From assembly GCA_014360055.1 (NCBI GenBank), contig JACIYH010000020.1:1-42217 (forward strand): a stretch of 42,217 nt of DNA, in the 5' to 3' direction. Made by a program: the position numbers and the translations under genes. Shown piece by piece: positions 214 through 40,523 of this stretch (position 1 is its first letter; each line of letters opens with the position of its first letter). Origin of the DNA: Bacillota bacterium (GTDB lineage: Bacteria > Bacillota > Sulfobacillia > JACIYH01). The notes under the pieces are model-generated. The model searched no databases. It saw only the letters and a list, made by a program, of their open reading frames with translations, and was not told the origin of the DNA.

Positions 214-1956
214 GTGGATCTCATGAATTGGTTTCTGCGCCTGCTACAGTCGGCGGGGCTAAACAAGGTGACGTCCGTCTGGGTATACGTCACGCTAGTT
301 GGGGCCGTGGGAGTGGGGCTGTATTTCTGGGCCCAGCTGTGGCAACTGAGGCGCGAAATCATAGCCTTTCTCCGCCACACCAGAGACATGGCTCCTCGCT
401 CGCCCGCCAATACGGAAGCCCTGGATCAGTACTTCGGGAGCAGGGGAGGAAGCCTGGCCGCATGCTGGGAAGCCTACCGCCAGGCCCGGAATGATCCGGT
501 CCTTCAGTGGGCCGACAGCCGCTACCCCGATGTCACCTGCTTTTTCCCCGCCAGTACATTGATAGAAAGGACTGGCCGCAGGAGGCTGGCCGAGGCTATC
601 CCCGGGATGTTGACGGCGTTCGGGATCCTGGGCACCTTCATAGGGTTGTCGGTTGGACTGAGGGACCTCAGGGTGGTAGATGTGGAGCGCATTCGGATGA
701 GTATACAGATGCTCCTCGGCGGGATGAATGTGGCCTTCTACTCCTCGGTGGTGGCAATATCTTGCTCCATCGTATGGCTGGCGGTGGATCGCTACTTCCT
801 GGGTAGGGCTCTGGCGGACGTGGATCGGCTTCATGAGCGCCTGCTCATGCTCCTTCCCTCACCCGGGGAACCGGAACTCCTGCAACAGATGCTCCAGGCC
901 CAGCAGGAACATGCCAGCGACGTCAGGAGTTTCTTGAGTGACGCCCTGCTGCCAAAGCTGGTGGAGGGCTTTAGCACCGCAGTGCAACAAGCCTTGGTAC
1001 CGGAGTTGGAGAGGAGCACGAAGTCTCTGGCAGAAGCGTTGCCCGGGATTGCAGCGGTGTTCCGTGAGGCGGTGGAGAGTTCTCTGGTGCCCCACGTACG
1101 CGCCACTGCCGTTGCCGTGGAGGAGTTTACCCGGGCAGGGACGGCAAAGCAGGTGGAAGGTGTGCAACAGATGGCGACCGAGTTCTTACGCGCTCTGGAT
1201 GGACAGGTGAGAGACCAGTTCGACAACCTGGCGTTGCTGGTCCGCGAACTCATGGATGCCAGCACGAAGCTAACAGTGGACGCCTCCAGTTTTGCTCAAC
1301 GCATGGAGGAGTTTGCTATTCTCAATGAGAGCGTGGGCAAGAAGGTAGGCGACATGCTGTCCGTCTTGGGCGCCTACACTGAGGAGTTCCGTCATTTCCA
1401 CGGTTCTCTGGAGTCCGCCCTTCGAGGAATGAGTGAACTGGCCGAGTCCGCTAGGGGGTTTCAGGCCGAGCTCGGGGAACACATCTCGAGCATGGCTCGC
1501 GTCCAGACGAGTCTAAACGATACCTGGGCACGACTATCGATGGACTTGCAGCCCAGGGTTGTCGAATTAGCCAAGGTGTGGGAGGAAACCGAGGAGAAGC
1601 TATCCATCCTGAACGGCAATCTGGAGCACAGCGCGGAGGCGTTCGCCAGCCACCTACATGCGGGTCTGGACCGCACCTTCAACAGCTTCGATGACAACCT
1701 GGCGCGGGCCACAACTCACCTTGCCCATACCCTTAGCCAGATGAACGAGACCGTAGACCAGGTCTCCAGTCAGGTGGGGCAGTTCCACCGTCTGGTGAAC
1801 GACGTCTCAGGGGTCCTGGTGGGTTTGCACAAGTCCGTCGTAGGAATGTCCGAGGGACTGGGTGCGCTGGAGCGGGTAATTGCGGAGGCGATCACTTCGG
1901 CCAGCAAAGAAGCGCGTCAGTTGACGGCTGGGACAGCGGAAGAAGGCGCCAGATGA
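214..1956 (+). CDS. zorA: ZorA, MotA/TolQ/ExbB-like proton channel subunit with long cytoplasmic tail (Zorya)
   Basis: This is the ion-channel subunit of a Zorya anti-phage system; with ZorB it forms an inner-membrane proton-driven motor whose long tail reaches into the cytoplasm. The 580-aa protein has a transmembrane segment near residues 20-40 and two more in a MotA/ExbB-like block at about 125-190 (AIPGMLTAFGILGTFIGLSV, then GGMNVAFYSSVVAISCSIVW). Residues from about 210 to the end are a Glu/Leu/Ala-rich helical, coiled-coil-like tail, longer than in ordinary TolQ and typical of ZorA. I chose GTG at 214, which has a GGGAAGGTGAG ribosome site; ATG at 223 is an alternative. Next comes zorB after 27 bases. 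The identification is firm because all four type I genes follow in order. Confidence 0.93.
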   Translation: MDLMNWFLRLLQSAGLNKVTSVWVYVTLVGAVGVGLYFWAQLWQLRREIIAFLRHTRDMAPRSPANTEALDQYFGSRGGSLAACWEAYRQARNDPVLQWADSRYPDVTCFFPASTLIERTGRRRLAEAIPGMLTAFGILGTFIGLSVGLRDLRVVDVERIRMSIQMLLGGMNVAFYSSVVAISCSIVWLAVDRYFLGRALADVDRLHERLLMLLPSPGEPELLQQMLQAQQEHASDVRSFLSDALLPKLVEGFSTAVQQALVPELERSTKSLAEALPGIAAVFREAVESSLVPHVRATAVAVEEFTRAGTAKQVEGVQQMATEFLRALDGQVRDQFDNLALLVRELMDASTKLTVDASSFAQRMEEFAILNESVGKKVGDMLSVLGAYTEEFRHFHGSLESALRGMSELAESARGFQAELGEHISSMARVQTSLNDTWARLSMDLQPRVVELAKVWEETEEKLSILNGNLEHSAEAFASHLHAGLDRTFNSFDDNLARATTHLAHTLSQMNETVDQVSSQVGQFHRLVNDVSGVLVGLHKSVVGMSEGLGALERVIAEAITSASKEARQLTAGTAEEGAR

Positions 1957-1983
1957 CGGCAGGCCTAGGGAGGAGGGTGTCGG

Positions 1984-2673
1984 ATGAGGGCGTCGGCCAG
2001 GGTAAGGCTTGCGGGGCTAAAGGAGAGCGAAAGGACTGACTACTGGATGTCGTATTCCGACGTGATGGCGGCGCTTATACTCATGTTCGTTCTCCTCCTC
2101 ACCCTGGTGATGCTAGATTACGTGGCGGCCAAGCAGAAAGGTATCGAACGTGTGTTGGGGATACGGGCGCAACTCATCCGCGAACTGAATGAGGAGTTTA
2201 AGGACAGCAAGTTGAAGATGAGAATCGACCCGGCTACCGGTGCGGTGACGTTCCCAGCGGGCGTTTTCTTTGCTTTCGACAGTGACGTGATTTCCCCTGA
2301 AGGCATGGCTTACCTCAAGGATTTCGTGCCCAAGTACGTAAAGACGATCTTGAAGCCCGAATACGAGAGGTACTTGGCGCAGGTCATCGTGGAGGGTCAT
2401 ACTGACCAGCGAGGATCGTATCTGTATAACCTCGATCTCTCCCAGCGTCGTGCCTATGCAGTGGTGCGCGCGATTTTCAGTGAGGATTTCCCCGACTTCC
2501 CCGGTCGGCAGAAGCTTCAGACGTACATAACGGCCAATGGCCGCTCCTACACATGCCCGGTCCCGGGAGAGACTGACCCACAGAAGCTTCGGCGGGTAGA
2601 GTTCCATTTTCGGCTGAAAGAGGACGAGTTTATAAAGGAACTCAAGTCCTTGCTGGGGGAGGATGGCGGGTAG
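1984..2673 (+). CDS. zorB: ZorB, MotB/OmpA-like peptidoglycan-binding stator subunit (Zorya)
   Basis: This is the partner of ZorA: it anchors the motor to the cell wall and carries the proton-accepting aspartate. The N-terminal membrane helix at about residues 24-46 begins YSDVMAALILMFVLLL, with Asp26 in the position of the MotB/ExbD proton-binding aspartate. The C-terminal half is OmpA-like (VEGHTDQRGS, then NLDLSQRRAYAVVRA), the fold that grips peptidoglycan. At 229 aa its length fits ZorB. The ATG at 1984 is preceded by AGGGAGGAGGGT. The stop lies two bases before the zorC start, so the genes are probably translationally coupled. Confidence 0.93.
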   Translation: MRASARVRLAGLKESERTDYWMSYSDVMAALILMFVLLLTLVMLDYVAAKQKGIERVLGIRAQLIRELNEEFKDSKLKMRIDPATGAVTFPAGVFFAFDSDVISPEGMAYLKDFVPKYVKTILKPEYERYLAQVIVEGHTDQRGSYLYNLDLSQRRAYAVVRAIFSEDFPDFPGRQKLQTYITANGRSYTCPVPGETDPQKLRRVEFHFRLKEDEFIKELKSLLGEDGG

Positions 2674-2675
2674 AC

Positions 2676-3857
2676 GTGCTGTGGGCGGATACGCATCGCT
2701 GGCGTTTTGTCTACCGCCCGGCTAAGCTGGAGGCGGCGGTGGAGGAAATATCCCGGCGGCACAACTCCGTGGCGGTAATGGAGCGTCGGCGGCGCGAATC
2801 ATCGTCTGTGGACGTGCAATCGTTGTTGGAAACCCTAACGGGTGCCCCTTCTGACGAAGCCCTCCAGGAGATTGCTCTGTCGCTCAGCACCCGGGAAATC
2901 ACCGCCCTCTTCTTTGCCCTGCCCAAGGTGCAGGAGGCCGAAGCAGCCGTGAAGGTGGCCAAGGTCATTATCTGGAGGCCCCAGCGGTGTCTCCTTGTTG
3001 ACGCCTGGCCGATGTTCAAAGGTTACCCGCGGCATCCGGGGTCCCGTATGTTAGTGGCCGAGGTGCTTGCCCGGGGTGTGGGCCCCGATCTCCCGGAACG
3101 GTACCGGGTCCTTGTCCAGAAGAGCGTTGGGACCGACGACCCGGCGGGAGCAATGGCGGCCGAACTGCTACTAGCGGAAGACCTGCTGTTCTCCGACCTG
3201 ATTAGGAACATGGATGTGGAACCTGATTGTACGCTTGCCGTTGAGATACTCCAGTACTATATGCTGGGGTCCACCAAGAAGCACTTCTTGCGGGAGGGCG
3301 GTGCTCTCCTGGCTTCCTACGCCCGGTCGCTTCGGATGTCACCCTTCAAGCGGTTTACGGAGCGTTACTTGCTCGAGATGGAGCCCACGTTCTTTCAGGA
3401 GGAGGTCGCCTCACTGATTCTTGAGAGGCTGGGGAAACCAGGTGATCCTCACAACCGGCGCTGGGAGGGGATCGATGAGGAGGCCAGGAGAAAGTTCCAG
3501 CGCTGGCTCGTTGAATCGGACCTCAAGCAGTTCTTCGAAGGGATCGCAGGGGATCGGGCCCGCTGGGAGTACTGGGCGCGTTACAGCGACAAAATCCAGG
3601 ATGTGACCCGGCATGATGACCCCCCCATCCTGGTGATGCATTTCCTGCGGGGCGTCGCCGTTGAATTCGGGCAACCGGGCAACGCTGCCTATCTGTACAC
3701 CCACGAGGTGTGGAACGTGATTTACCATGACCACCTCTGCTGGCGCACGGTCTGGAGACCACAGGACCTGAAGTACCGCGAGTGGTGCGTGGGCAGGATT
3801 GAACACCGGGGGTGGTGGGAGCTGGAGGCTGATGATGTGGTTGAACGAATCCTCTGA
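2676..3857 (+). CDS. zorC: ZorC, EH-signature domain protein (type I Zorya)
   Basis: ZorC is the type I specific component, thought to work with ZorD on invading DNA in the cytoplasm. The 393-aa protein has no membrane segment. The C-terminal third carries the EH-signature pattern: RARWEYWARYSDKIQDV, then VAVEFGQPGNAAYLYTHEVW, then a conserved-looking His in RIEHRGWW near residue 380. These Glu and His positions give the family its name. The start is GTG at 2676; the GGGGGAGGATGG at the end of zorB gives the ribosome site. It ends 17 bases before zorD. I base the call on the motif and on its place between zorB and a SNF2 helicase, and exclude type II Zorya, which has ZorE instead. Confidence 0.9.
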   Translation: MLWADTHRWRFVYRPAKLEAAVEEISRRHNSVAVMERRRRESSSVDVQSLLETLTGAPSDEALQEIALSLSTREITALFFALPKVQEAEAAVKVAKVIIWRPQRCLLVDAWPMFKGYPRHPGSRMLVAEVLARGVGPDLPERYRVLVQKSVGTDDPAGAMAAELLLAEDLLFSDLIRNMDVEPDCTLAVEILQYYMLGSTKKHFLREGGALLASYARSLRMSPFKRFTERYLLEMEPTFFQEEVASLILERLGKPGDPHNRRWEGIDEEARRKFQRWLVESDLKQFFEGIAGDRARWEYWARYSDKIQDVTRHDDPPILVMHFLRGVAVEFGQPGNAAYLYTHEVWNVIYHDHLCWRTVWRPQDLKYREWCVGRIEHRGWWELEADDVVERIL

Positions 3858-3874
3858 CATAGGGGGGATGCCCG

Positions 3875-6652
3875 ATGCTCAGATTGGGACCGACGCGGGA
3901 CGCCCTCAGGGTAGAGAAGTCTTATGAATGGGATGGCGTCGCCTTCACCATATGCGTGACCAGCGGGGCCGACCGCGTCACCCTCCGTTTCCCCATCGAT
4001 TTCCGACCCCACATGTCGCTGCGAGACTTTCTCCGCCAGAGCTGCCTTACCCAGCTTGAATGCCTGGAAGACCTGTGGATGAGCGGTGAGTTGGTTGAGC
4101 GCGAAGGGGCCTACGTCCTGCCGTATGAAAAGCTCGATGCACTGGACCCGGAGATACGCCGCACCCTCGCACTTCCCGAACCGGCTGATGTGGATGTATC
4201 CCTGCGCTCGATTGGTGCGGTTGGCCAGCCTCATTTCGAGATCAGGCCTGTGTTGCGTCACTCGCTACACGGGTTCCTCGACGCCATGTGGGAACGCCGG
4301 GGATGCGTGATGGTCCACGGGGAAGATGCGGTTTTGTTGCCCCCCGGGGTGGTGGCCTTGCTCGATGCCCTCGCGGACAGACCGCCTGCCTGGGCGGGGC
4401 AGATGGCGAGGCAGCCGGAATACGCAGCCAGGGTGCGAACCAGGGCCCTGCAAGCGGGAGCTAGGCTCGACCCCTACCTGGAGCGTGAACAGTACCTGTT
4501 CCCCGAAAAGGTAGGCGTGGACGTCAGCAGCCCCGAGCCGGGGACGATCAACCTCCGGCCCGTCCTTGATGGCGTACCGCCCGCCGTAAACGAGCATCTC
4601 GACACCGTCCTTCCCTCCGGCAGGAAGTACGGCACCTATACATTTCGGGATGGCAGTGGCAGGCGTATCCGCGTCTTTGTCGGAGACAAGGTGGTAGAAC
4701 AGCTGCAGGCCATCCGCAGCAGACGGGTCCTGCGGGGGCCGGATGCGGCCAGGTTCGTCCAGAACCCAACTGCCTTTCTCCCTGAGGACTTGGAGCTTGA
4801 CCTAGCTGATTTCAGCGACCGGGTCAAGGGGTTGGCCCTTCGGGTCTACCGGGCTCAGCCTTTCATTTCGGCTACCCCCAGCGGTAGGGGTTGGTTCGAC
4901 GTTCAGACGGGTGTCAGGCTCAGGAATGTGTCGGACCCGGACGAGGATATCGACATACCGGTCGACGAGTTTCGCGACATAGCCGAAAGGGCGCTGCAGT
5001 CGGGTCAGGAGTATGTGGAGTGGAAGGGCAAGTGGATACAGGTACCGGCCTCGATGCAAACCTTCCTGGCCGGGGACGATAAACTCAGGCGCCTGGCTCC
5101 CGCAAGTCGTGTGGACGTTACCCGGCTCCCGTACGTACTGGAGATCTTCGAGAACGTCGTCGACCTGGAGTACAGCGCTATTCTGGTGGAAGAGAAGGCA
5201 AAATTGGACGCTGACGTCGAAGCCAGCGACGCTGTACCGGCAACATTCAAGCTGGAGTTACGGCCGTTTCAGCGGGCCGGCTACGCGTGGATGAGGCGGC
5301 AGCACCTGCGCAAGCTGGGGTGCCTGCTGGCCGACGAAATGGGGCTGGGGAAAACCATCCAGACACTTGCCTTTCTCTGCCACCTCCACGAGCGGGGGCA
5401 ACTGAGGCCCTCGCTGGTGGTGGCACCGCTGGCCATCATCGACAACTGGGTGGCGGAGTTGGAGCGTTGCCTCCCCCCCATCGTTTGCTATGTACACCTG
5501 GGGCCCCGCCGGCTGAAGGATCTCAATTCCATCAGCAGGGCCGACCTGGTGTTCACAAGCTACGAGACCCTGGTAAGGGACCAACTTTTGTTGGGTCAGG
5601 TTGACTGGCAGGTGGTGGTCTGCGATGAAGCCCAGAAGATTAAGAACTACACCGCTATGGCAACGCAAGTCGCCAAAGCGCTCAAGGCCACCATTCGCCT
5701 GGGCCTGACCGGCACCCCGGTAGAAAACAGCCTGGGTGAACTCTGGTGCATAGGGGATTTCGTGCAGCCAGGGTTGCTGGGCAGCTACCGGGAGTTCCGG
5801 GCTGAGTTCGAGCTTCCCCTAGCGAGGGCTGCGCCGCCGGAGAAGGGGGGCGTGGAGTCGCGCCTGCATGAGAGGCTGATTCCCATCTACCTCCGGCGGA
5901 CCAAGAAAGAGGTGCTCGAGAACCTACCGGCAATCACCGAGCACGAGTGGACGGCCGACATGACGGACCTGGAGACCGAACTGTACCTGGACGTTCTCGC
6001 CAGGGTGCGGAGGAGGGAAATCGAGCCGCTGGTGGCTATAAGGCGTCTTCTTGATATCTGTGCCCATCCCGACCTGCCGGCCAACGGAGGCCTGGTTCTG
6101 GACCCCGGCCAAATGGTTCGTCGCTCGAGCAAACTCCAGCTCACCTTGCGCCTCATGGACCAGGTCGCCGCCCAGGGAGAAAAGGCGGTGGTCTTTTGTC
6201 ACCTCCGGAACATGCAGCGCATTCTGAAGCGAGCGTTCATGTGGCGGTACGGACTCCCGGAATGCTTTATCCTTAACGGGGAGACCCAAAACCGGCTGGA
6301 CATGGTTGAGCGCTTCAACCGGCAACCGGACTTCGGCGCCATGATAATCTCGCCCAAGGCGGGTGGGGTGGGCCTCAACATCACGGGAGCAAACCACGTT
6401 ATCCACTACGTGCGCTGGTGGAATCCGGCCGTCGAAAGCCAAGCGACGGCGCGCGTGCACCGGATTGGTCAGTCGCGGGCGGTGCACGTGCACTACCCCA
6501 TCTTGACCCATCCGGAGTTTAAAACGGCCGACGTCATCCTGGACGAACTGCTGAAGGAGAAACGTGAACTGGCCGACTCCGTACTGGTGCCCACGAGCCG
6601 GCTGGAGATCTCCGAGAAAGAGTTCGCCGCCCGCATGGGGCTTGGTACATAG
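3875..6652 (+). CDS. zorD: ZorD, SNF2-family helicase/translocase (type I Zorya)
   Basis: This is the cytoplasmic DNA-acting effector of the Zorya system, an SNF2-type ATPase. The 925-aa protein has an N-terminal region of about 460 residues without recognisable motif, then a complete helicase core: Walker A (ADEMGLGKT), motif II (VVCDEAQKIKN), motif III (LGLTGTPVENS), and in the second RecA lobe ISPKAGGVGLNITGANHVIH and the motif VI signature ARVHRIGQ. In ZorD homologues a nuclease activity has been described; I cannot assign its active site by eye. ATG at 3875 has AGGGGGGATG just upstream. It is the last gene of the operon, followed by a GGGAGGAG site that leads only into a broken reading frame. 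Confidence 0.93.
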   Translation: MLRLGPTRDALRVEKSYEWDGVAFTICVTSGADRVTLRFPIDFRPHMSLRDFLRQSCLTQLECLEDLWMSGELVEREGAYVLPYEKLDALDPEIRRTLALPEPADVDVSLRSIGAVGQPHFEIRPVLRHSLHGFLDAMWERRGCVMVHGEDAVLLPPGVVALLDALADRPPAWAGQMARQPEYAARVRTRALQAGARLDPYLEREQYLFPEKVGVDVSSPEPGTINLRPVLDGVPPAVNEHLDTVLPSGRKYGTYTFRDGSGRRIRVFVGDKVVEQLQAIRSRRVLRGPDAARFVQNPTAFLPEDLELDLADFSDRVKGLALRVYRAQPFISATPSGRGWFDVQTGVRLRNVSDPDEDIDIPVDEFRDIAERALQSGQEYVEWKGKWIQVPASMQTFLAGDDKLRRLAPASRVDVTRLPYVLEIFENVVDLEYSAILVEEKAKLDADVEASDAVPATFKLELRPFQRAGYAWMRRQHLRKLGCLLADEMGLGKTIQTLAFLCHLHERGQLRPSLVVAPLAIIDNWVAELERCLPPIVCYVHLGPRRLKDLNSISRADLVFTSYETLVRDQLLLGQVDWQVVVCDEAQKIKNYTAMATQVAKALKATIRLGLTGTPVENSLGELWCIGDFVQPGLLGSYREFRAEFELPLARAAPPEKGGVESRLHERLIPIYLRRTKKEVLENLPAITEHEWTADMTDLETELYLDVLARVRRREIEPLVAIRRLLDICAHPDLPANGGLVLDPGQMVRRSSKLQLTLRLMDQVAAQGEKAVVFCHLRNMQRILKRAFMWRYGLPECFILNGETQNRLDMVERFNRQPDFGAMIISPKAGGVGLNITGANHVIHYVRWWNPAVESQATARVHRIGQSRAVHVHYPILTHPEFKTADVILDELLKEKRELADSVLVPTSRLEISEKEFAARMGLGT

Positions 6653-31862: not shown

Positions 31863-32909
31863 TCAGTTGAACGGGAACTGGAGCTGACGGTCTTGCCCCT
31901 CGTGTTCCGCCTGTTCGGCAGGAGAGGCCGTCTCAAGGCAGGTTCGCACAGCAACGAGCTCCTCGGCAGACGAAAGTCGAAAAGTGATGCTGTTGCCGTC
32001 AGCCGCCCATTCGAATGGCGGTAGATCCCTCTCCTTGCGGAATGCACGCGACAGAAACTCCCTGGTGCGCCTGCGGACGCTGGTAACATCATTCCGACTG
32101 CGCCAGCGTTCCCACAGGCCGTGCGTGGCTTTGACCAGCACCTCGTCCAGAGAGAGGACAAAGTCGGCCGGCCAGCACTCCAGACGTGCCTGACCGACGA
32201 TAGAAAGGGCGGCTTGCCAAACCGCGGCCAGGAACCGCCGAAGACAATATTGTTTCTCTTCCGGCCTTTGCTGTACCGACGGCAGCCACGGCAGCAGGTA
32301 AAACGGTCGCGTTAGAGGAGCCCGTTGTACGCGCAGCCGGACGGCCAGTTTCCGCCCAGTATCCTCTGGGAGCTCATGACTGCCGTGACAGGTGACGTAC
32401 AGTCCGTCCTCCCCAACCTCTAGCCCCAAGCTACATACTGGCGACACGGCAAGGCCCAGGTCCTGCAGTTGCTCCCTGACCCTGAGCAGGGTCTGCCGCA
32501 TCCGCTCGGCATCGCCCTCCGGCAATACGTAGGCAACGCAGCCGTAGGGCGGGGGACGGTCAGTTGCCATGGCGAGGGGCCCCCGCAAGTCGGCTGCCGC
32601 GAGGATAAGCCCTCGGGCCTGACCGGCAGTCCCTGACTCCGGGCCAAACGAACTCCCTTTGCACTCAATGATGAGGTACGCATTGGCCTCACGAGAGGCT
32701 AGCACGTCCGGTGAGGGCTGGTTGGTCACGTCCAGGGAGGCAGCGACCATCTGGACGGCGGGGGGAAGTGGCAGGCTGCGGTCCACTGAGTCCAACGCAA
32801 ATCCGAGCTCCCACAAAAACGGCCGGATGGGGACGGCCTCCGGGGGTGCTTTCATGAGAAAATGAAGGACGAGATTCAGTTGGTAGACAGGATCATCTAC
32901 GGGGACCAC
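31863..32909 (-). CDS. Putative PD-(D/E)XK nuclease of an unknown two-gene module
   Basis: This is a 348-aa protein that I cannot place in a named family. Residues 67-84 read PDVLASREANAYLIIECKGS: Pro-Asp, 13 residues, then Glu-Cys-Lys at the end of a hydrophobic strand, the layout of a PD-(D/E)XK restriction-endonuclease-like core. A Gln soon after (GTAGQARGLILAAADL) fits the following helix. The C-terminal third is helical and basic (RRRTREFLSRAFRKERD). Start: GTG at 32909, with GGGGAGG about seven bases upstream, inside the 3' end of the partner gene (17-base overlap); ATG at 32954 is an alternative. The tight overlap shows a coupled pair. Metal-dependent DNA cleavage is inferred from the motif only. 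Confidence 0.6.
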   Translation of the reverse strand: MVPVDDPVYQLNLVLHFLMKAPPEAVPIRPFLWELGFALDSVDRSLPLPPAVQMVAASLDVTNQPSPDVLASREANAYLIIECKGSSFGPESGTAGQARGLILAAADLRGPLAMATDRPPPYGCVAYVLPEGDAERMRQTLLRVREQLQDLGLAVSPVCSLGLEVGEDGLYVTCHGSHELPEDTGRKLAVRLRVQRAPLTRPFYLLPWLPSVQQRPEEKQYCLRRFLAAVWQAALSIVGQARLECWPADFVLSLDEVLVKATHGLWERWRSRNDVTSVRRRTREFLSRAFRKERDLPPFEWAADGNSITFRLSSAEELVAVRTCLETASPAEQAEHEGQDRQLQFPFN

Positions 32910-34155
32910 CGTCGACCCTCCCCGGGCGAGGCTCGGTTGCCACCACGGCCTCATATGGAAGGTTACCGATCCACACCTTAACAGCTGGATCGATAAGGCG
33001 CTGTACGTTCGTCACGAGGCGGTGGACCGTGTTGCCGCAGGTACCCTCGGGGAGGAAAGCCAGGAGATGGCCTCTGGCAAACTCTAGATAGATCCTCTGC
33101 CACAGATGGCGGTCAATCCCATAGACGTGCACTGTGTCCGGTCCGCCCTCGATGGGGTGGCCCCAGAGACGAAAGGCGTTGTTGCGTCGCCTGAATATAC
33201 TGTTGACCCATCTCTTGAACACGTCTTCAGGGAGCGGCTCGGCGAACTGCATCAGGACAGGTGCACCTTGAGCCAGCAGACCCTCCGGCCCCCCGTCGAG
33301 CCGTGTCCAGAGGATGTCCTCCGCCTTCTCGGTTGTCCGGCGGTACAACTCGAGGACGTACGATAGTTGCTGCCTGTGGTCGGCAAAGCTGTCGCTCCGG
33401 TTGGTCACCTGACCGTCAAAGTAGAAGTCGTGACCCCCGCGCCCGGATGCCGGAATGCGGAGCTGGATGATGGAGTGGAAGGGTCGGTAGATGTCCCGCA
33501 GCCTGTCGATCTTTTCTTGCACTTCCCGCAGCCGATCGAGGAGTGTGCATCTGGCAGACCTCCTCTCAGGCAAAGCCGTGTCCTGGGATCGCTCATCTGC
33601 TTCTTCGTCCGGGTCGCTCTCAGGTTGACAACCGTCGTTGGGCTCCCGTCCCTCTACCTCGTAGCGCGCATCGTATTCGAAGGACAGCTTTACATAGCGG
33701 TGAGGCGCACAGCGAGCCTTCACGTGCTCCCATAGTTGCTCGAACACCGGGCGGCTGATCCATACCCTGTCCAGCCAGACACACCCGTCGACCAGCGCGC
33801 GCACCCGGGGGCGCACATCCTTCACGGGGAGAGTCGTGTACAGAGCAAAGAACCTGTGGTCGATGACCTCCGCCAAAGCCCATGGGTCCGCCCCCGGCGC
33901 CGATGCCACCCGAAACAAGGTGTCATCGACCGGCTCAACGAATGCGCCTGCCTGCCTTAGCATCTCTTGAGGGGTTGGATTCTTGTCACCGGTGCGTACC
34001 GTCTCCACGAGGAAGGACTTCACCACCGGAGTGCGGTGACTCCGAATATCGGCGCTCCATGCCCCGGACTGCCAGCCCTCGAAGTAGTCCCAATACTCCT
34101 CCCGCGATGGCAAACGGGGCATGCTCAGCGACTCGGCCGTCGGCTCTGGACCCAT
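32893..34155 (-). CDS. Unknown 420-aa partner of the putative nuclease
   Basis: I do not recognise this protein. It starts MGPEPTAESLSMPRLPSREE with a Trp/Tyr-rich beginning (YWDYFEGWQSGAWSADIRSH). A strongly acidic segment lies near residues 165-190 (CQPESDPDEEADERSQD), followed by a coiled-coil-like helix LLDRLREVQEKIDRLRDIYR. The C-terminal half has HDFYFDGQVTNRSDSFADHR and HLLAFLPEGTCGNTVHRLVT. No Walker, HTH or membrane segment is visible. ATG at 34155 has GGGGGAG eight bases upstream; ATG at 34122 is an alternative with a poor site. It precedes and overlaps the nuclease-like gene, so the two probably act together, possibly as recognition and cleavage parts; that division is inference. 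Confidence 0.6.
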   Translation of the reverse strand: MGPEPTAESLSMPRLPSREEYWDYFEGWQSGAWSADIRSHRTPVVKSFLVETVRTGDKNPTPQEMLRQAGAFVEPVDDTLFRVASAPGADPWALAEVIDHRFFALYTTLPVKDVRPRVRALVDGCVWLDRVWISRPVFEQLWEHVKARCAPHRYVKLSFEYDARYEVEGREPNDGCQPESDPDEEADERSQDTALPERRSARCTLLDRLREVQEKIDRLRDIYRPFHSIIQLRIPASGRGGHDFYFDGQVTNRSDSFADHRQQLSYVLELYRRTTEKAEDILWTRLDGGPEGLLAQGAPVLMQFAEPLPEDVFKRWVNSIFRRRNNAFRLWGHPIEGGPDTVHVYGIDRHLWQRIYLEFARGHLLAFLPEGTCGNTVHRLVTNVQRLIDPAVKVWIGNLPYEAVVATEPRPGRVDGGPRR

Positions 34156-34548
34156 CCCCCTCACTCCCCCGTGCCCCGTCCATACCTGCGCGATCCCAGT
34201 ATACCCAACTCCCAGGTGGCTGCCAACGGACGTGGCCATCCAGTCTTCCGCGCCAGAGGTCATCCGGCTCCCGAATGCGGTCCCAATGCGGCGCGTATGT
34301 CAGGTGAGGGCGTAGTGGCTCGCTCAGGAAGTTTGCTGTCGCGGTGGATTGCCCAACCAACTGCTGGCGAGCCCCGCTTTGCGGGTACGTTTCCCAACAC
34401 GGCTCACCGCGCGCAGTGGCTGGTCCGCTACAGGTGGCGGAGTAGGAAAAGTACCGCTCCATGTCGTACTACCGATCAAGCGGCCGCATGTCCGGATTGG
34501 TGGTAGCGAACGCGGCGGCTGTCTTAACCCGGGGGTTGAGGTGTTCAT
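34156..34548. other. Divergent intergenic region of the second island
   Basis: This 393-base region separates the minus-strand pair from the plus-strand genes and should carry promoters for both. A minus-strand open frame with ATG at 34462 (MERYFSYSATCSGPATARGE) crosses it, but it lacks a ribosome site and overlaps the 420-aa gene out of frame. I found no clear -35/-10 pair, tRNA or repeat. Confidence 0.4.
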
Positions 34549-35211: not shown

Positions 35212-35349
35212 TGCCCAGGACGCCGTGCTGTGCCATGCTTGATGGTGCGGGGGCGAGTGGGTGTTACATGAGCGTGCCTGCGGGTTATGGGCCGTCAGCC
35301 AGCCCTGACTAGCTATTGGCCCCAGTCGGACCGCGGGGGGGGCGGGGGT

Positions 35350-37215
35350 GTGTCCGCGAACGAAAGGAGCAACGAGGGGGCCAACTCGCAGGAAAGGCCT
35401 ACTACGGAGGATTGGGTCCGATTCTGGACGGAGATGCGGCGGCTTTTCGGAGGCGCCTACGCAAGTGTTGTCCGCCAGGAGGCGGGTGGTTCGGTGAGCG
35501 CCGCGATGACTCTTGCACAGTTTCAGGAACTACGTATGCGTCTTTATGCCAGGGCCCGGCGCGGGGGCCCCTTGGGTCAATTGCCTGCTAAGGCAGCCGA
35601 GCGCGATCTGATTGAGGAGTGGTTTTCACCGGACTCTGTGGAGAAACTGCAGGAAAGCCTGCGGAAGGGACTGCCGACGGCCGTATACGATGCTCTGGTG
35701 GAATGGGCGAGAGCGAGTTCTCAACAACAGATAGCCTCGTGGCAGGGTCGCATTCGTCCCCGGCTGGAAAAAGTCGCGTGGGCCAAACAGGCGGACAATT
35801 CCCCTCGCCAGGGTAACTCGGCGGCCCTGCGGGCGGCGTACCAACTCATGAATCCGAAAGATTGGTTAGATTCGTTCAAGGCCACATTCGAGGTCTCGGA
35901 CATACGGTTGGGCTACAATAGGTTTCTGAGGTCCGCCAATTCATCGCTGCCCTTTCTTGACTTGCCGAACCGTTATCAACTTCCGGAAGCGTCCTTCAAA
36001 GCCCTGGAGGCAGGTGTTTTGTTGGGACTGACTCAGGTATATGAAGCCCTGGGTCAACTTGCGATGCGGCTCAGCAGTCAGGTGAAGTTGTTAAAGGAAG
36101 TCAAGGAGGCTCTGGGTTTCAACATCGGATTCAAACTTGTTGCCAAGCTGGTAGGGGGGGCCATTGCCGGCCCGCTCGGCTCCCTCGCGGCCGGTCTGTT
36201 CTTCAATCCGCTCGCCGAGGATCGCCAGCGGGTCAGGGAGGGCCACAACCAGGTGTTGGCTGCGTGGGAACTGTTCCTGAACCGCCTTGACTCATGTTGG
36301 CCGGCATTGGAAGCGAGGTATCGCCATGCACTGATGTGCCTGTACGGGGGCTTGATGTTGCGCCTGGTGCAGGATCTTCGGTCTGCCGGAATCGATCTCA
36401 TAGGCGTTGATTTGGGGACGGGGCAAATCACGACTACGGTGGCTGAAAACGACATCGATCGAGTTATATCGTGGGCGCACAACTGGTCCACGAAACTCGA
36501 TGACCTGATATCGGCCAATGCTTGGTCCGAAGCTGAGATGGTTTCGAGGGAGGTCGCCAAAGCGGTCCTGGCCCAACCACACGTCGGGCGGGTCGTATAT
36601 CGGGACCGGTCTCTCCTGTGTTGGTCGGTGATTTACCGCACTGTGCTCGTCTTCCATCACGCACAGGATCTTTGGTCAAATGGCAGAAAACGGGAGGCTG
36701 CCGGGCTGTACTGGAAGTGGTTCGAGGAATCGCCGGTTTGCCCCGATGACCAAGCATTACTCCAACGGAAGGTACTTCCGGTTCACGCGGCCGCGTCTCG
36801 CTTGATTAACCAATTGCTTAGGAATTCCGATTGGATTAGCGAGGGGAAGCAGGGTGTGTCTCTATCAGAGGCACCGTTCTTCAAATTCTTGGGCCGCCGC
36901 GTTCAGGCGCGGCAGTCGCCTTTTCCGTGGCAAGGAGAAGTGATCGCCCCAGCGCTGGTTCGCCTTCTGGTCAGTTACGCTTCGTTCGCACGAGTCAAGC
37001 CCGGGGTGCTCAATACACTAAACAAACGGGAAAAGAGAGCCTCTTATGTGTCCGTTGCGCGTCTCTACCGACGGGCCGCCAGACCTCGTTGGTCGGAGGA
37101 TCCTTTCTACCGATGGCTGGTTTGGCGATTCTTGCGAGCCACACTGCTGTGGGTGGGGTCGGCGGTTGCGCTCGGATCGGTAGCATGGTTGATTGCTACT
37201 GTAGCGATTAAGTGA
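35350..37215 (+). CDS. Unknown 621-aa protein with C-terminal membrane anchor
   Basis: Family not recognised. The first 35 residues are polar, then mostly helical sequence (TTEDWVRFWTEMRRLFGGAY). At about residues 255-290 there is a Gly-rich hydrophobic stretch IGFKLVAKLVGGAIAGPLGS continuing LAAGLFFNP, able to dip into a membrane. A basic segment (NKREKRASYVSVARLYRRAA) precedes a single C-terminal transmembrane helix LLWVGSAVALGSVAWLIATV ending AIK, so it is tail-anchored with its bulk in the cytoplasm. GTG at 35350 sits after a long G-run; the upstream extension to 35287 is less likely. By eye the gene is much less GC-rich than the host genes, a sign of transfer. In a defence-like island it could be a membrane effector; that is speculation. 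Confidence 0.55.
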   Translation: MSANERSNEGANSQERPTTEDWVRFWTEMRRLFGGAYASVVRQEAGGSVSAAMTLAQFQELRMRLYARARRGGPLGQLPAKAAERDLIEEWFSPDSVEKLQESLRKGLPTAVYDALVEWARASSQQQIASWQGRIRPRLEKVAWAKQADNSPRQGNSAALRAAYQLMNPKDWLDSFKATFEVSDIRLGYNRFLRSANSSLPFLDLPNRYQLPEASFKALEAGVLLGLTQVYEALGQLAMRLSSQVKLLKEVKEALGFNIGFKLVAKLVGGAIAGPLGSLAAGLFFNPLAEDRQRVREGHNQVLAAWELFLNRLDSCWPALEARYRHALMCLYGGLMLRLVQDLRSAGIDLIGVDLGTGQITTTVAENDIDRVISWAHNWSTKLDDLISANAWSEAEMVSREVAKAVLAQPHVGRVVYRDRSLLCWSVIYRTVLVFHHAQDLWSNGRKREAAGLYWKWFEESPVCPDDQALLQRKVLPVHAAASRLINQLLRNSDWISEGKQGVSLSEAPFFKFLGRRVQARQSPFPWQGEVIAPALVRLLVSYASFARVKPGVLNTLNKREKRASYVSVARLYRRAARPRWSEDPFYRWLVWRFLRATLLWVGSAVALGSVAWLIATVAIK

Positions 37216-37332
37216 GATGCACAGTAGGCCAGGGCTGGCGCACGGGGGGTAGGGAGGCCGTTGGGTAATACATACGGAGCGGGGTATCCGCCGTCGGGCG
37301 AGGCGATCAAGCAGGGCAGGGAGTGTCAGTGG

Positions 37333-38595
37333 ATGCATCTCTCGGCGCGGCTGACGTGGCATGACGGCGGGTGGGACGGGAGGATCTGCAGGAACCCTAC
37401 CGGGAACGTCTGGTGCCTGATGCACGAGCACATCCGCTCCTCGCGGGATGATGAGCGGGAAGAGGCGCACAGGGGAAAGCTGCTCGCGGATATTCGGGAC
37501 TGGGGTCCGCCGTGCGGACGGGACCCCGGCGCGTTCTCGCCGGTGGGATACCGTATCACGCACCGTGATCCCCTCGACTGGCGCGGCTTGCCACCTGCGG
37601 AAGAAGAGATCCCGCCGTATTCCTGGTGCGCCTCCCCGTACGGTCGTATGTTCTCTTCCGACCCGGAGGCGACGTGGGAAAGCGATCCGGTAGAGCAGGA
37701 GCGGCGGCTCCGGGAGTTCTGGGCCAGTGTCAAACCGGGGCGTTCCCTGGTGTTCTTCTACCTTAACCACGCCAACCCACTGCAGGACGAAAGCGGTACC
37801 CGCCTCCTGGTCGGGATCGGGCGGGTCAAGGAGATAGGGCTGCTCCAGTACTTCGGCCAGAGCCCGAAGTACCCGGGGAAGAAGTTCCCGGTATGGTCCC
37901 GTCGCGTCACGCACGACTATCCGCGCCAGGGGTTCCGCCTGCCCTATCAGGAGTACGTGCAGCTCGGCCTGGACCCCAGCGGCATCCTGTGCCCGATTCC
38001 GTCGTCGGCGATCCCGGCCTTCTCCTATGTGACCGAGCACGTGACGGACGACGTTGCCATCGCCGTCATCGAGCGTGCCATCCAGTCCCTGCAGGCCGTG
38101 ATCAGCGAGGGCAGAGTCCCCGGGAACTGGGGTGAGGCCCTGGCATGGCTTAACGATGTGCTGGCCGAATGCTGGACCGGCCGGGGCCGCTATCCGGGGA
38201 TAGGGGCCGTGCTGGATCACCTGGGGTTCGGTCAGGGCGCGGTCTTCCACTACAGGGTGCTCGCTCCCATGGCGGAGAGGGGCGATGACCCGCTAGCCTA
38301 CGTGATCGCCCTGCTCGAGGGCCGCGAGGAACTCACGGACCCTTCCTACGCCGGCGGTCTCAGGGCGGCCGCGCAAATGTGGGGTCAACTGCCCCAGACA
38401 CGCAGGGAGTTGCTCAAGACCCTTTGCCGGTTCGAGCTCACCAGGGCGCAGGTGGATCGTATTGCGCACCCTCAGAAGAGGGCGGAGGCAGGTTTCCGGC
38501 CACGGTGGCGCTTGACTGGCTGGCAGACATGGAAAAAGACATCCGGAACGTTGTACTGGAGTTCCTGGGTAAGACGTACCAGCCCAGTGGGTTAG
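37333..38595 (+). CDS. RecD-like helicase-nuclease, N-terminal part (frame broken near 38490)
   Basis: This is the front of a helicase of which the rest lies in another frame (38529-40523). It starts MHLSARLTWHDGGWDGRICR, and contains SLVFFYLNHANPLQDESGTR and LLVGIGRVKEIGLLQYFGQS, a region that precedes the ATPase core in this group of RecD-like proteins. The sensible sequence stops at about RIAHPQKRAEAG (38490); the remaining codons to the stop at 38595 are out of frame and Trp/Arg-rich. ATG at 37333 with AGGGAG nine bases upstream is better than TTG at 37261. If the shift is real the ATPase half is separated; if it is an assembly error, this is one protein of about 1060 aa. Confidence 0.65.
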   Translation: MHLSARLTWHDGGWDGRICRNPTGNVWCLMHEHIRSSRDDEREEAHRGKLLADIRDWGPPCGRDPGAFSPVGYRITHRDPLDWRGLPPAEEEIPPYSWCASPYGRMFSSDPEATWESDPVEQERRLREFWASVKPGRSLVFFYLNHANPLQDESGTRLLVGIGRVKEIGLLQYFGQSPKYPGKKFPVWSRRVTHDYPRQGFRLPYQEYVQLGLDPSGILCPIPSSAIPAFSYVTEHVTDDVAIAVIERAIQSLQAVISEGRVPGNWGEALAWLNDVLAECWTGRGRYPGIGAVLDHLGFGQGAVFHYRVLAPMAERGDDPLAYVIALLEGREELTDPSYAGGLRAAAQMWGQLPQTRRELLKTLCRFELTRAQVDRIAHPQKRAEAGFRPRWRLTGWQTWKKTSGTLYWSSWVRRTSPVG

Positions 38596-40523
38596 ACTGG
38601 GCGCAGATCATCCGGAGCATCCCGGGTGCCATCCCGGCCGACGCCGACGAGCGGGCGGTCGCTGAGGCCCTGGTGGGGCAGGCCGATGCCCTCGAGCTGG
38701 TCTTCCGATCCCGGTTTGCCGTCATCCACGGGCCGGCCGGGACCGGGAAGACGACCATCGTGGCGGCGCTTCTGCGGGGCATCGAAGAGACGGAGGGCAG
38801 AAGGCCCGTACTTCTCCTGGCCCCTACGGGCAAGGCCCGGGTCCGCCTGGCAGAGAAAACCGGTCTCAAGGATCGGGCGTTCACCATACACCAGTTCCTC
38901 CTCCGGAACGGGTGGTTGAGAGAGGAGAACTTCACGCTGAAGCTCTCAGGGGGCCAGACGGAGGGGGCAGCTACCGTCATCGTCGATGAGGCCTCCATGA
39001 TCACCGTCGACCTGCTGGCCACCATGCTGCGAGCGCTCAAGAAGAACGAGGTGCGGCGCTTCATACTGGTGGGGGATCCCAACCAGCTGCCCCCCATTGG
39101 CCCGGGCCGGCCGTTCGTGGACATCATCTCGTGGCTGGAGCAAGATGAGACTATCCGCCGCTACGGCCGGCACGTAGCCCACCTGCGCCAGCGGGTCCGT
39201 CACAAGCACCGCGGTAGCGAAGCCCTCCGGCTGGCGGATGCCTTCGCCGCCGAGGACCCCAGCCCGGATGACGACGCCATCCTGTCCGCGGTGGCACTCG
39301 GGCGGGTCGATCCCGCCTCGGACCTGGAAGTTCACTATTGGAACGACGCAGTCGAACTGTCGCACCTGCTGTCGGAACGCATGAAGGCCGTCCTTGGGGT
39401 GGCGGCAGATGGTCCCAAACCGTGGGACACCCTCGATGAGTCGCTGGGTCACGGCAAGGAGAAGCCGCATCCCGAACGCTGGCAGATACTGAGTCCGGTC
39501 AGGGGCGACTTGCACGGCACCAGCGAGCTCAACCGAGTCATCCAGCGTACCTACCGGCGCGGCCTGATGGTTACTGCGAAACCGAGACCGTTCGGTGAGC
39601 AGGAGATCGTCTGGCGCGACAAGGTCATCCAGATCGCCAATGCGCGCATGCCCTGGTGGGACGGGAAACAACAGCGCGAGGAGTACGTGGCCAACGGCGA
39701 AGTGGGCCTGGTGGTGGGGACGCAACGAAAGGGTAAGCACGGCAAGCCCCCCTGGGACGTCCTCTACGTTCGCTTTCCCGCCCGGGATTTCGAACTGCAA
39801 TACCGGTGCCCGATCGTCGACAGTTACCTTGAGTTGGCCTACGCCATCACCGTGCACAAGGCCCAGGGGAGCGACTTCGATTACGTATTCCTCATCATCC
39901 CCCAGAAGGCACCCACGCTTTCTCGCGAGCTTCTCTACACCGGCCTCACCAGGTTCAAGGAGCGCCTGATACTGCTCATCGAGAAGGACTGCGGTCCGCT
40001 CCTCCGTTGCCGCAGCCCGGAGGCGTCTGCCACCGCCCGGCGCAACACCAACCTGTTCTCACTGCAGATGCACCCCGAGACCGTTGGCCCGTACCGCCCG
40101 GATCTCCTCATCCACCGCACGCGCGAGGGGACCCTGGTGCGCTCGAAGTCGGAGGTGGTGGTGGCCGACGTCCTCACCAGCGTCCTGGGCGAGGGCTGCT
40201 ACAGGTATGAGCAGAAGCTGGAGAACCCGGCAGATCCCCGCGACTTCCGCCTGCCGGACTTCACTATCACTTATGCGGGCGATACCTTCTACTGGGAGCA
40301 CCTGGGCATGCTCGGCAACCCGGCCTATCGCCAGGAGTGGGAGCGCAAGCGGGCCTGGTACGAGGGCCTGGGCATCCCGGTGGTGGGCATCGGTGCAGCG
40401 CCGGGTCAGGAGCCGCCGCACCCCACACCCCCGTTCGTCATCACCTCAGCCGATGGGCGGGACGGCAGCATCGACGCCCAGGAGATCGCCCACCTCGCCC
40501 GCAAATGGATCCTCAACACGTAG
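38529..40523 (+). CDS. RecD-like SF1 helicase with C-terminal PD-(D/E)XK-like nuclease domain
   Basis: This is a DNA helicase core of the RecD/UvrD_C_2 type. Walker A is VIHGPAGTGKTTIVAALLRG, Walker B TVIVDEASMITVDLLA, motif III RRFILVGDPNQLPPIGPGRP, then late motifs AYAITVHKAQGSDFDYVFLI and RELLYTGLTRFKERLI. The last 160 residues look like a restriction-type nuclease: VRSKSEVVVADVL, YEQKLENP, FRLPDFTI, YWEHLGMLGNPAYRQEWERK, giving Glu, Asp, Glu-x-His and Lys in the expected order. The reading frame is open from 38379, but meaningful sequence begins near 38491 (RFPATVALDWLADMEKD); the ATG at 38529 has no ribosome site, so this half is probably expressed only if the frameshift is an error or is bypassed. 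Confidence 0.75.
   Translation: MEKDIRNVVLEFLGKTYQPSGLDWAQIIRSIPGAIPADADERAVAEALVGQADALELVFRSRFAVIHGPAGTGKTTIVAALLRGIEETEGRRPVLLLAPTGKARVRLAEKTGLKDRAFTIHQFLLRNGWLREENFTLKLSGGQTEGAATVIVDEASMITVDLLATMLRALKKNEVRRFILVGDPNQLPPIGPGRPFVDIISWLEQDETIRRYGRHVAHLRQRVRHKHRGSEALRLADAFAAEDPSPDDDAILSAVALGRVDPASDLEVHYWNDAVELSHLLSERMKAVLGVAADGPKPWDTLDESLGHGKEKPHPERWQILSPVRGDLHGTSELNRVIQRTYRRGLMVTAKPRPFGEQEIVWRDKVIQIANARMPWWDGKQQREEYVANGEVGLVVGTQRKGKHGKPPWDVLYVRFPARDFELQYRCPIVDSYLELAYAITVHKAQGSDFDYVFLIIPQKAPTLSRELLYTGLTRFKERLILLIEKDCGPLLRCRSPEASATARRNTNLFSLQMHPETVGPYRPDLLIHRTREGTLVRSKSEVVVADVLTSVLGEGCYRYEQKLENPADPRDFRLPDFTITYAGDTFYWEHLGMLGNPAYRQEWERKRAWYEGLGIPVVGIGAAPGQEPPHPTPPFVITSADGRDGSIDAQEIAHLARKWILNT

Follow-up and report, generated by a model that had tools for sequence, protein, structure and literature searches.

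A candidate two-gene defence module consisting of a CENP-L/RdgC-like predicted protein and a predicted PD-(D/E)XK-type nuclease

Hachiman (HamAB), Shedu, Gabija and McrBC are two-part or stand-alone nuclease defences, which follow a compact recognition-plus-nuclease or nuclease-only logic and are found in defence islands. The gene pair described here resembles them in its compact logic and its defence-island setting, but it comes without a helicase, an AAA+ or an OLD-type ATPase and matches no PADLOC model. RnlA/RnlB, also called RNase LS, is an anti-T4 toxin-antitoxin. Proteins with the CENP-L/RdgC-type fold act in recombination control and at the eukaryotic kinetochore. CENP-L has been reported to be similar to RdgC and TBP (PMC5095916), and a fusion of a TBP-like domain to HEPN domains related to that of RNase LS has been described (PMC3710099).

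The two genes lie in what we call the window, the whole analysed stretch of 42,217 nucleotides (Table 1). By computation, they form a conserved, overlapping and co-varying unit in which gene 2 carries the PD-(D/E)XK pattern and gene 1 is predicted to fold like CENP-L and RdgC, and which occurs patchily and among defence genes. An earlier note on this DNA had proposed two overlapping minus-strand genes; both frames and their 17-nt overlap are present, with the stop codon of gene 1 at 32895-32893 and the GTG of gene 2 at 32909-32907. The ribosome site, which the note took to be shared, is not: the GGGGAGGG in the terminal part of gene 1 would act for gene 2, and gene 1 has a purine-rich stretch of its own upstream.

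Table 1. Coordinates of the gene pair and of its sequence features in the window
Feature	Position	Strand	Description and basis
Gene 1	32893..34155	minus	420 aa; alpha/beta protein with a predicted CENP-L/RdgC-like (TBP-like) fold, put forward as a DNA clamp/sensor; ORF, alignment, AlphaFold2, Foldseek
Gene 2	31863..32909	minus	GTG start, 348 aa; predicted PD-(D/E)XK-type nuclease with C-terminal helical/winged-helix-like part
17 nt in which the end of gene 1 overlaps the start of gene 2	32893..32909	minus	Sequence; recurs as a short stop/start overlap in homologous loci
Shine-Dalgarno-like GGGGAGGG for gene 2	32916..32923	minus	Inside gene 1 end, 6 nt upstream of the GTG
Acidic linker of gene 1, about residues 165-199	33559..33663	minus	Low pLDDT
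Gene 1 signature G-T-C-G-N-T-V-H-R, residues 371-379	33019..33045	minus	Between the last sheet strand and the next helix
Gene 2 Pro67-Asp68 (motif PD)	32706..32711	minus	P in 41/43, D in 35 and E in 8 of 43 homologues
Gene 2 Glu82-Cys83-Lys84 (motif ExK)	32658..32666	minus	E and K in 43/43
Gene 2 Gln97	32619..32621	minus	43/43; in the helix (95-106) after the ExK strand

Pairing, distribution and database searches

One genome per species was scanned via gene 1, which yielded 57 gene-1 loci. These belong to Acidimicrobiia, Chloroflexota, Bacilli, Acidobacteriota, Nitrospirota, Planctomycetota, several candidate phyla and archaea; as many of the loci come from metagenome bins, such taxon labels can err. 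At most of them gene 1 is followed immediately by gene 2, with stop/start overlaps of mostly 4-17 nt. The distance matrices of the two genes correlate with r = 0.94 over 40 loci, a value to which shared descent contributes and which was not reached in any of 2000 permutations. Counting how often homologues occur as the same pair, as the note had proposed, gave a gene 2 in 33 of 36 gene-1 genomes, essentially only at the gene-1 locus. The recurring order and overlap, the correlation and the near absence of solitary gene 2 copies bear out the fixed partnership that had been postulated and mark the pair as an old unit. No fusion of the two genes was seen in the 57-locus set, nor was there a constant third component; the upstream genes vary by clade, and only a PemK-like gene in Bacilli recurs.

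The pair is patchily distributed. In the window's own class, gene 1 occurs in only 4 of 154 genomes including that of the window, and the other three carry an adjacent gene 2; in one class the pair was present in 3-4 of 247 genomes. Both same-genus genomes lack it. In one of them, homology to the window breaks off at 34406, some 250 bp short of gene 1. In that region (G031:C17 106954-128920; L113, L114), McrB/McrC-like genes take the place of the pair beside a PDC-S68 that is intact, and BREX-type genes (PglZ, DUF6079, methylase, helicase) come after them. This same-genus difference is module gain and loss in a defence island.

Relatives of the pair are found in Methanocaldococcus, haloarchaea and many bacterial phyla, and they are still annotated as ‘hypothetical protein’. 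The same label is attached to all copies on annotated plasmids, which were seen in Metabacillus, Lysinibacillus, Halobacterium and Methanocaldococcus jannaschii. In the last of these, a distant pair (MJ_RS09135/MJ_RS09130) lies on plasmid pDSM2661_1 (L072 7794-10305), with an ‘ATP-dependent endonuclease’ and a gene for an EVE-domain protein close by.

Searches of Pfam, NCBIfam, PADLOC, PHROGs and PDB sequences returned no family that names gene 1 or gene 2. Gene 1, which the note could liken to nothing known, is accordingly not named by any Pfam, NCBIfam or PADLOC family; it is a distant relative of phrog_22469, a PHROG of unknown function. In PADLOC 2.0, none of the 5027 models matched either protein at E up to 1, which rules out membership of a named defence system there and agrees with the impression that neither protein belongs to one. 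A phage structural module was rejected as well, and this possible refutation fell away: there were no matches in 50,697 phage records, and only one of 2.9 million viral contigs carried a copy. Queries of open papers for RdgC-like or TBP-like defence proteins brought up nothing beyond the HEPN review and the kinetochore work. The novelty of the pair rests on its absence from Pfam, NCBIfam, PADLOC 2.0 and searchable open papers.

The predicted nuclease and its partner

The earlier note had read a PD-(D/E)XK-like layout into gene 2, and the Pro-Asp at residues 67-68 and the Glu-Cys-Lys at 82-84 are indeed there. In an alignment of 43 homologues E82, K84, F88, Q97 and P207 are invariant, and the more remote archaeal and Lysinibacillus partners retain PD..ECK, PD..DCK or D..EIK. 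The constancy of E82 and K84, like the recurring gene order and overlap, goes well beyond what chance would give. The AlphaFold2 model (pLDDT 88.3) contains a strand at 37-42, a second at 69-73 that begins at the PD, a third at 77-83 that ends in ECK, the helix with Q97 and a further strand at 122-130, which is the canonical order. Its secondary structure thus has the alpha-beta-beta-beta-alpha-beta arrangement of the PD-(D/E)XK core with the motifs on the second and third strands, so that the conserved E and K sit where the fold requires them. In hhalign comparisons, the gene 2 profile matched the HSDR_N_2 nuclease domains with 86.6% probability (E = 4e-6, computed for one comparison) and placed ECK on the ExK of that family, while controls reached up to 1.7%. 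Together, the conserved (P)D/E...(D/E)xK, the fitting topology and this profile match sustain the proposed layout.

In the structure search suggested in the note, Foldseek gave weak matches for gene 2, among them BstEII (prob 0.51) and MmcB-like proteins (0.63). Winged-helix proteins were also among the matches, probably via the C-terminal part. For neither gene 1 nor gene 2 was there a Foldseek match with E < 0.001, and TM-scores were low. The Pfam matches of gene 2 (Hjc, HSDR_N_2 and PDDEXK_11) were likewise weak and all under the Pfam cut-offs, and an Hjc profile search across 14 of the genomes yielded nothing to compare. Because the direct fold search is weak, the assignment leans on motifs, topology and profile match jointly; on this basis, gene 2 very probably encodes a PD-(D/E)XK nuclease. 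It shares the PD...(E)xK motifs and the strand/helix order with the HSDR_N_2, Hjc and PDDEXK groups, but differs from them in being a protein without helicase or methyltransferase and in having its own conserved F88, Q97 and P207 and a C-terminal helical part.

For gene 1, AlphaFold2 predicts a well-ordered alpha/beta protein (pLDDT 86.9). The acidic segment pointed out in the note is real and corresponds to the low-confidence linker, whereas the coiled coil is unsupported, since the longest helix of the model has only 26 residues (257-282). The signature of gene 1 is LPxGTCGNTxHRL, a run of invariant residues at the junction preceding the last long helix; G371-T376, H378 and R379 are identical in all 51 members of the alignment, and remote archaeal and Lysinibacillus proteins have the versions GSCGNT, DACGNT and GACANT. 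A seeming N-terminal extension of 300 aa in two loci (L019, L022) was rejected because the homologous start lies inside that frame and the codon composition differs; it is an upstream open frame.

In Foldseek, gene 1 matches human CENP-L best (prob 0.97) and E. coli RdgC next (0.63); RnlA follows as a weak match (up to 0.41). The order of strands and helices at residues 45-123 and 300-387 fits tandem beta-alpha-beta4-alpha saddles, which suggests that the predicted protein is built of two TBP-like units, with modest E-values and TM-scores (E = 0.003 and TM 0.26-0.33). Profile comparison revealed no internal duplication or repeat of the two halves. The structural alignment with RdgC and CENP-L spans about 300 columns, but gene 1 is set apart from both by an identity of 8-9%, low TM-scores, the lack of a Pfam or PDB sequence match and its own signature. 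As none of the 51 members matches the Pfam RdgC profile, the likeness is one of fold and not of membership in the RdgC family. In comparison with RnlA/RnlB, gene 1 has no HEPN domain detected by Pfam, and its partner is a predicted nuclease instead of an antitoxin. An enzymatic or ligand-binding site would be another way to account for the large number of invariant polar residues in gene 1.

Defence genes around the pair and alternative readings

The enrichment near known defence genes, which the note had named as a check, was found. The 101 nearest neighbour genes match 306 PADLOC families at E up to 1e-15, and 101 control genes from elsewhere on the same long contigs match 24, in counts that refer to families and not to genes. 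Genes of DISARM, Gabija, Hma, or type I or III restriction occur at 25 of the 57 loci (14 of the 24 long ones), and 16 control stretches of 20 kb contained no homologues of the labelled defence genes; these labels were drawn from the same loci, which leaves the PADLOC family counts as the one independent contrast. Over half of the 57 loci have no labelled defence genes within reach, and many contigs are short. In some Bacilli, the pair is located near TniQ/TnsD, that is, Tn7-like genes.

In several loci (L027, L028, L029, L056, L067 and L070), gene 2 is damaged by internal deletion, truncation or frameshift while gene 1 is kept, and the nuclease core is often lost. Among Acidimicrobiia, residues 54-239 are missing in L027 and 25-305 in L028, and L029 retains only 1-67; intact close relatives exist (e.g. 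L032, L035). Repeated damage to gene 2 beside an intact gene 1, in a search made through gene 1, points to a nuclease that is dispensable or costly. Such losses would fit a toxin-antitoxin-like or abortive module, in which the nuclease is toxic to the host and gene 1 restrains it until infection disturbs the complex. The position of gene 1 ahead of gene 2 with overlapping stop and start agrees with this, as does the PemK/MazF-like gene that directly precedes the pair in the observed Bacilli copies (L047-L051, L053, L055, L071) and on the viral contig L104. Nevertheless, we consider this reading unlikely: in its large size, high conservation and good folding gene 1 is unlike typical antitoxins, the recent losses of gene 2 may simply reflect a costly effector, and losses of gene 1 would be missed because the loci were found through it.

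The pair might instead be an accessory of restriction or DISARM operons that cuts DNA unmarked by the neighbouring methyltransferase. It does lie between or beside DISARM genes in several Acidimicrobiia and beside HsdM-HsdS or a type III Mod at other loci. However, there is no single methyltransferase or operon throughout, and over half of the loci, the window included, have none adjoining. DISARM-type genes are near about 11 loci, mostly of Acidimicrobiia, and occur neither in the window nor in the Bacilli loci, so the pair was not found to be a fixed part of a drmA/drmB/drmC operon. As the partners are of unrelated kinds, a shared island fits better than a shared machine, and we regard an accessory role as quite improbable. 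Finally, a housekeeping pair for DNA repair or recombination, made up of an RdgC-like protein and a structure-specific nuclease such as Hjc, would account for the RdgC and Holliday-junction resolvase resemblances, but is very hard to reconcile with a distribution that is patchy even inside genus and class, with defence-island and Tn7-like neighbours and with plasmid copies.

We therefore favour the reading that the pair is a self-contained two-gene module for DNA-targeting defence, composed of a clamp-like sensor and a nuclease, and judge such a defence role to be reasonably probable. In this module, the two proteins would bind one another. Gene 1 may grip DNA as a clamp or saddle and may detect a feature of incoming DNA, such as an end, a replication intermediate or a modified base; this detection would position gene 2 to cut, and the C-terminal helical part of gene 2 may also touch DNA. 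As the unit includes no ATPase or methyltransferase, the choice between self and non-self would have to come from what gene 1 recognises. The more specific proposal, that bacteria and archaea share a defence system in which a CENP-L/RdgC-type DNA clamp senses foreign DNA and turns on a PD-(D/E)XK nuclease without ATPase or methylation mark, is put forward tentatively. If true, it would represent a compact, ATP-free means of finding and cutting foreign DNA and would give the TBP/RdgC/CENP-L fold group a role in defence. The pair is small and present in culturable Bacilli, and the proposal is thus directly testable.

Immediate neighbourhood in the window

As neighbours of the pair, the window contains a Zorya system of type I, PDC-S68 and McrC. 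A helicase-nuclease and McrC had been noted beside the pair, and both are there, but the helicase-nuclease is the PADLOC candidate PDC-S68 and is split over two frames (window 37261-40523). Compared with an intact same-genus copy, a 1263-aa frame of 98% identity, about 387 bp are missing and there is a 1-nt indel; PDC-S68 is thus broken in the window or misassembled. Between it and the pair, a 642-aa gene at 35287-37215 falls into no known family; its C-terminal segment is hydrophobic and membrane-like, and its relatives, all distant, are confined to a single genus of the class. The Zorya operon at 214-6652 is complete, with ZorA, ZorB, ZorC and ZorD all identified by PADLOC.
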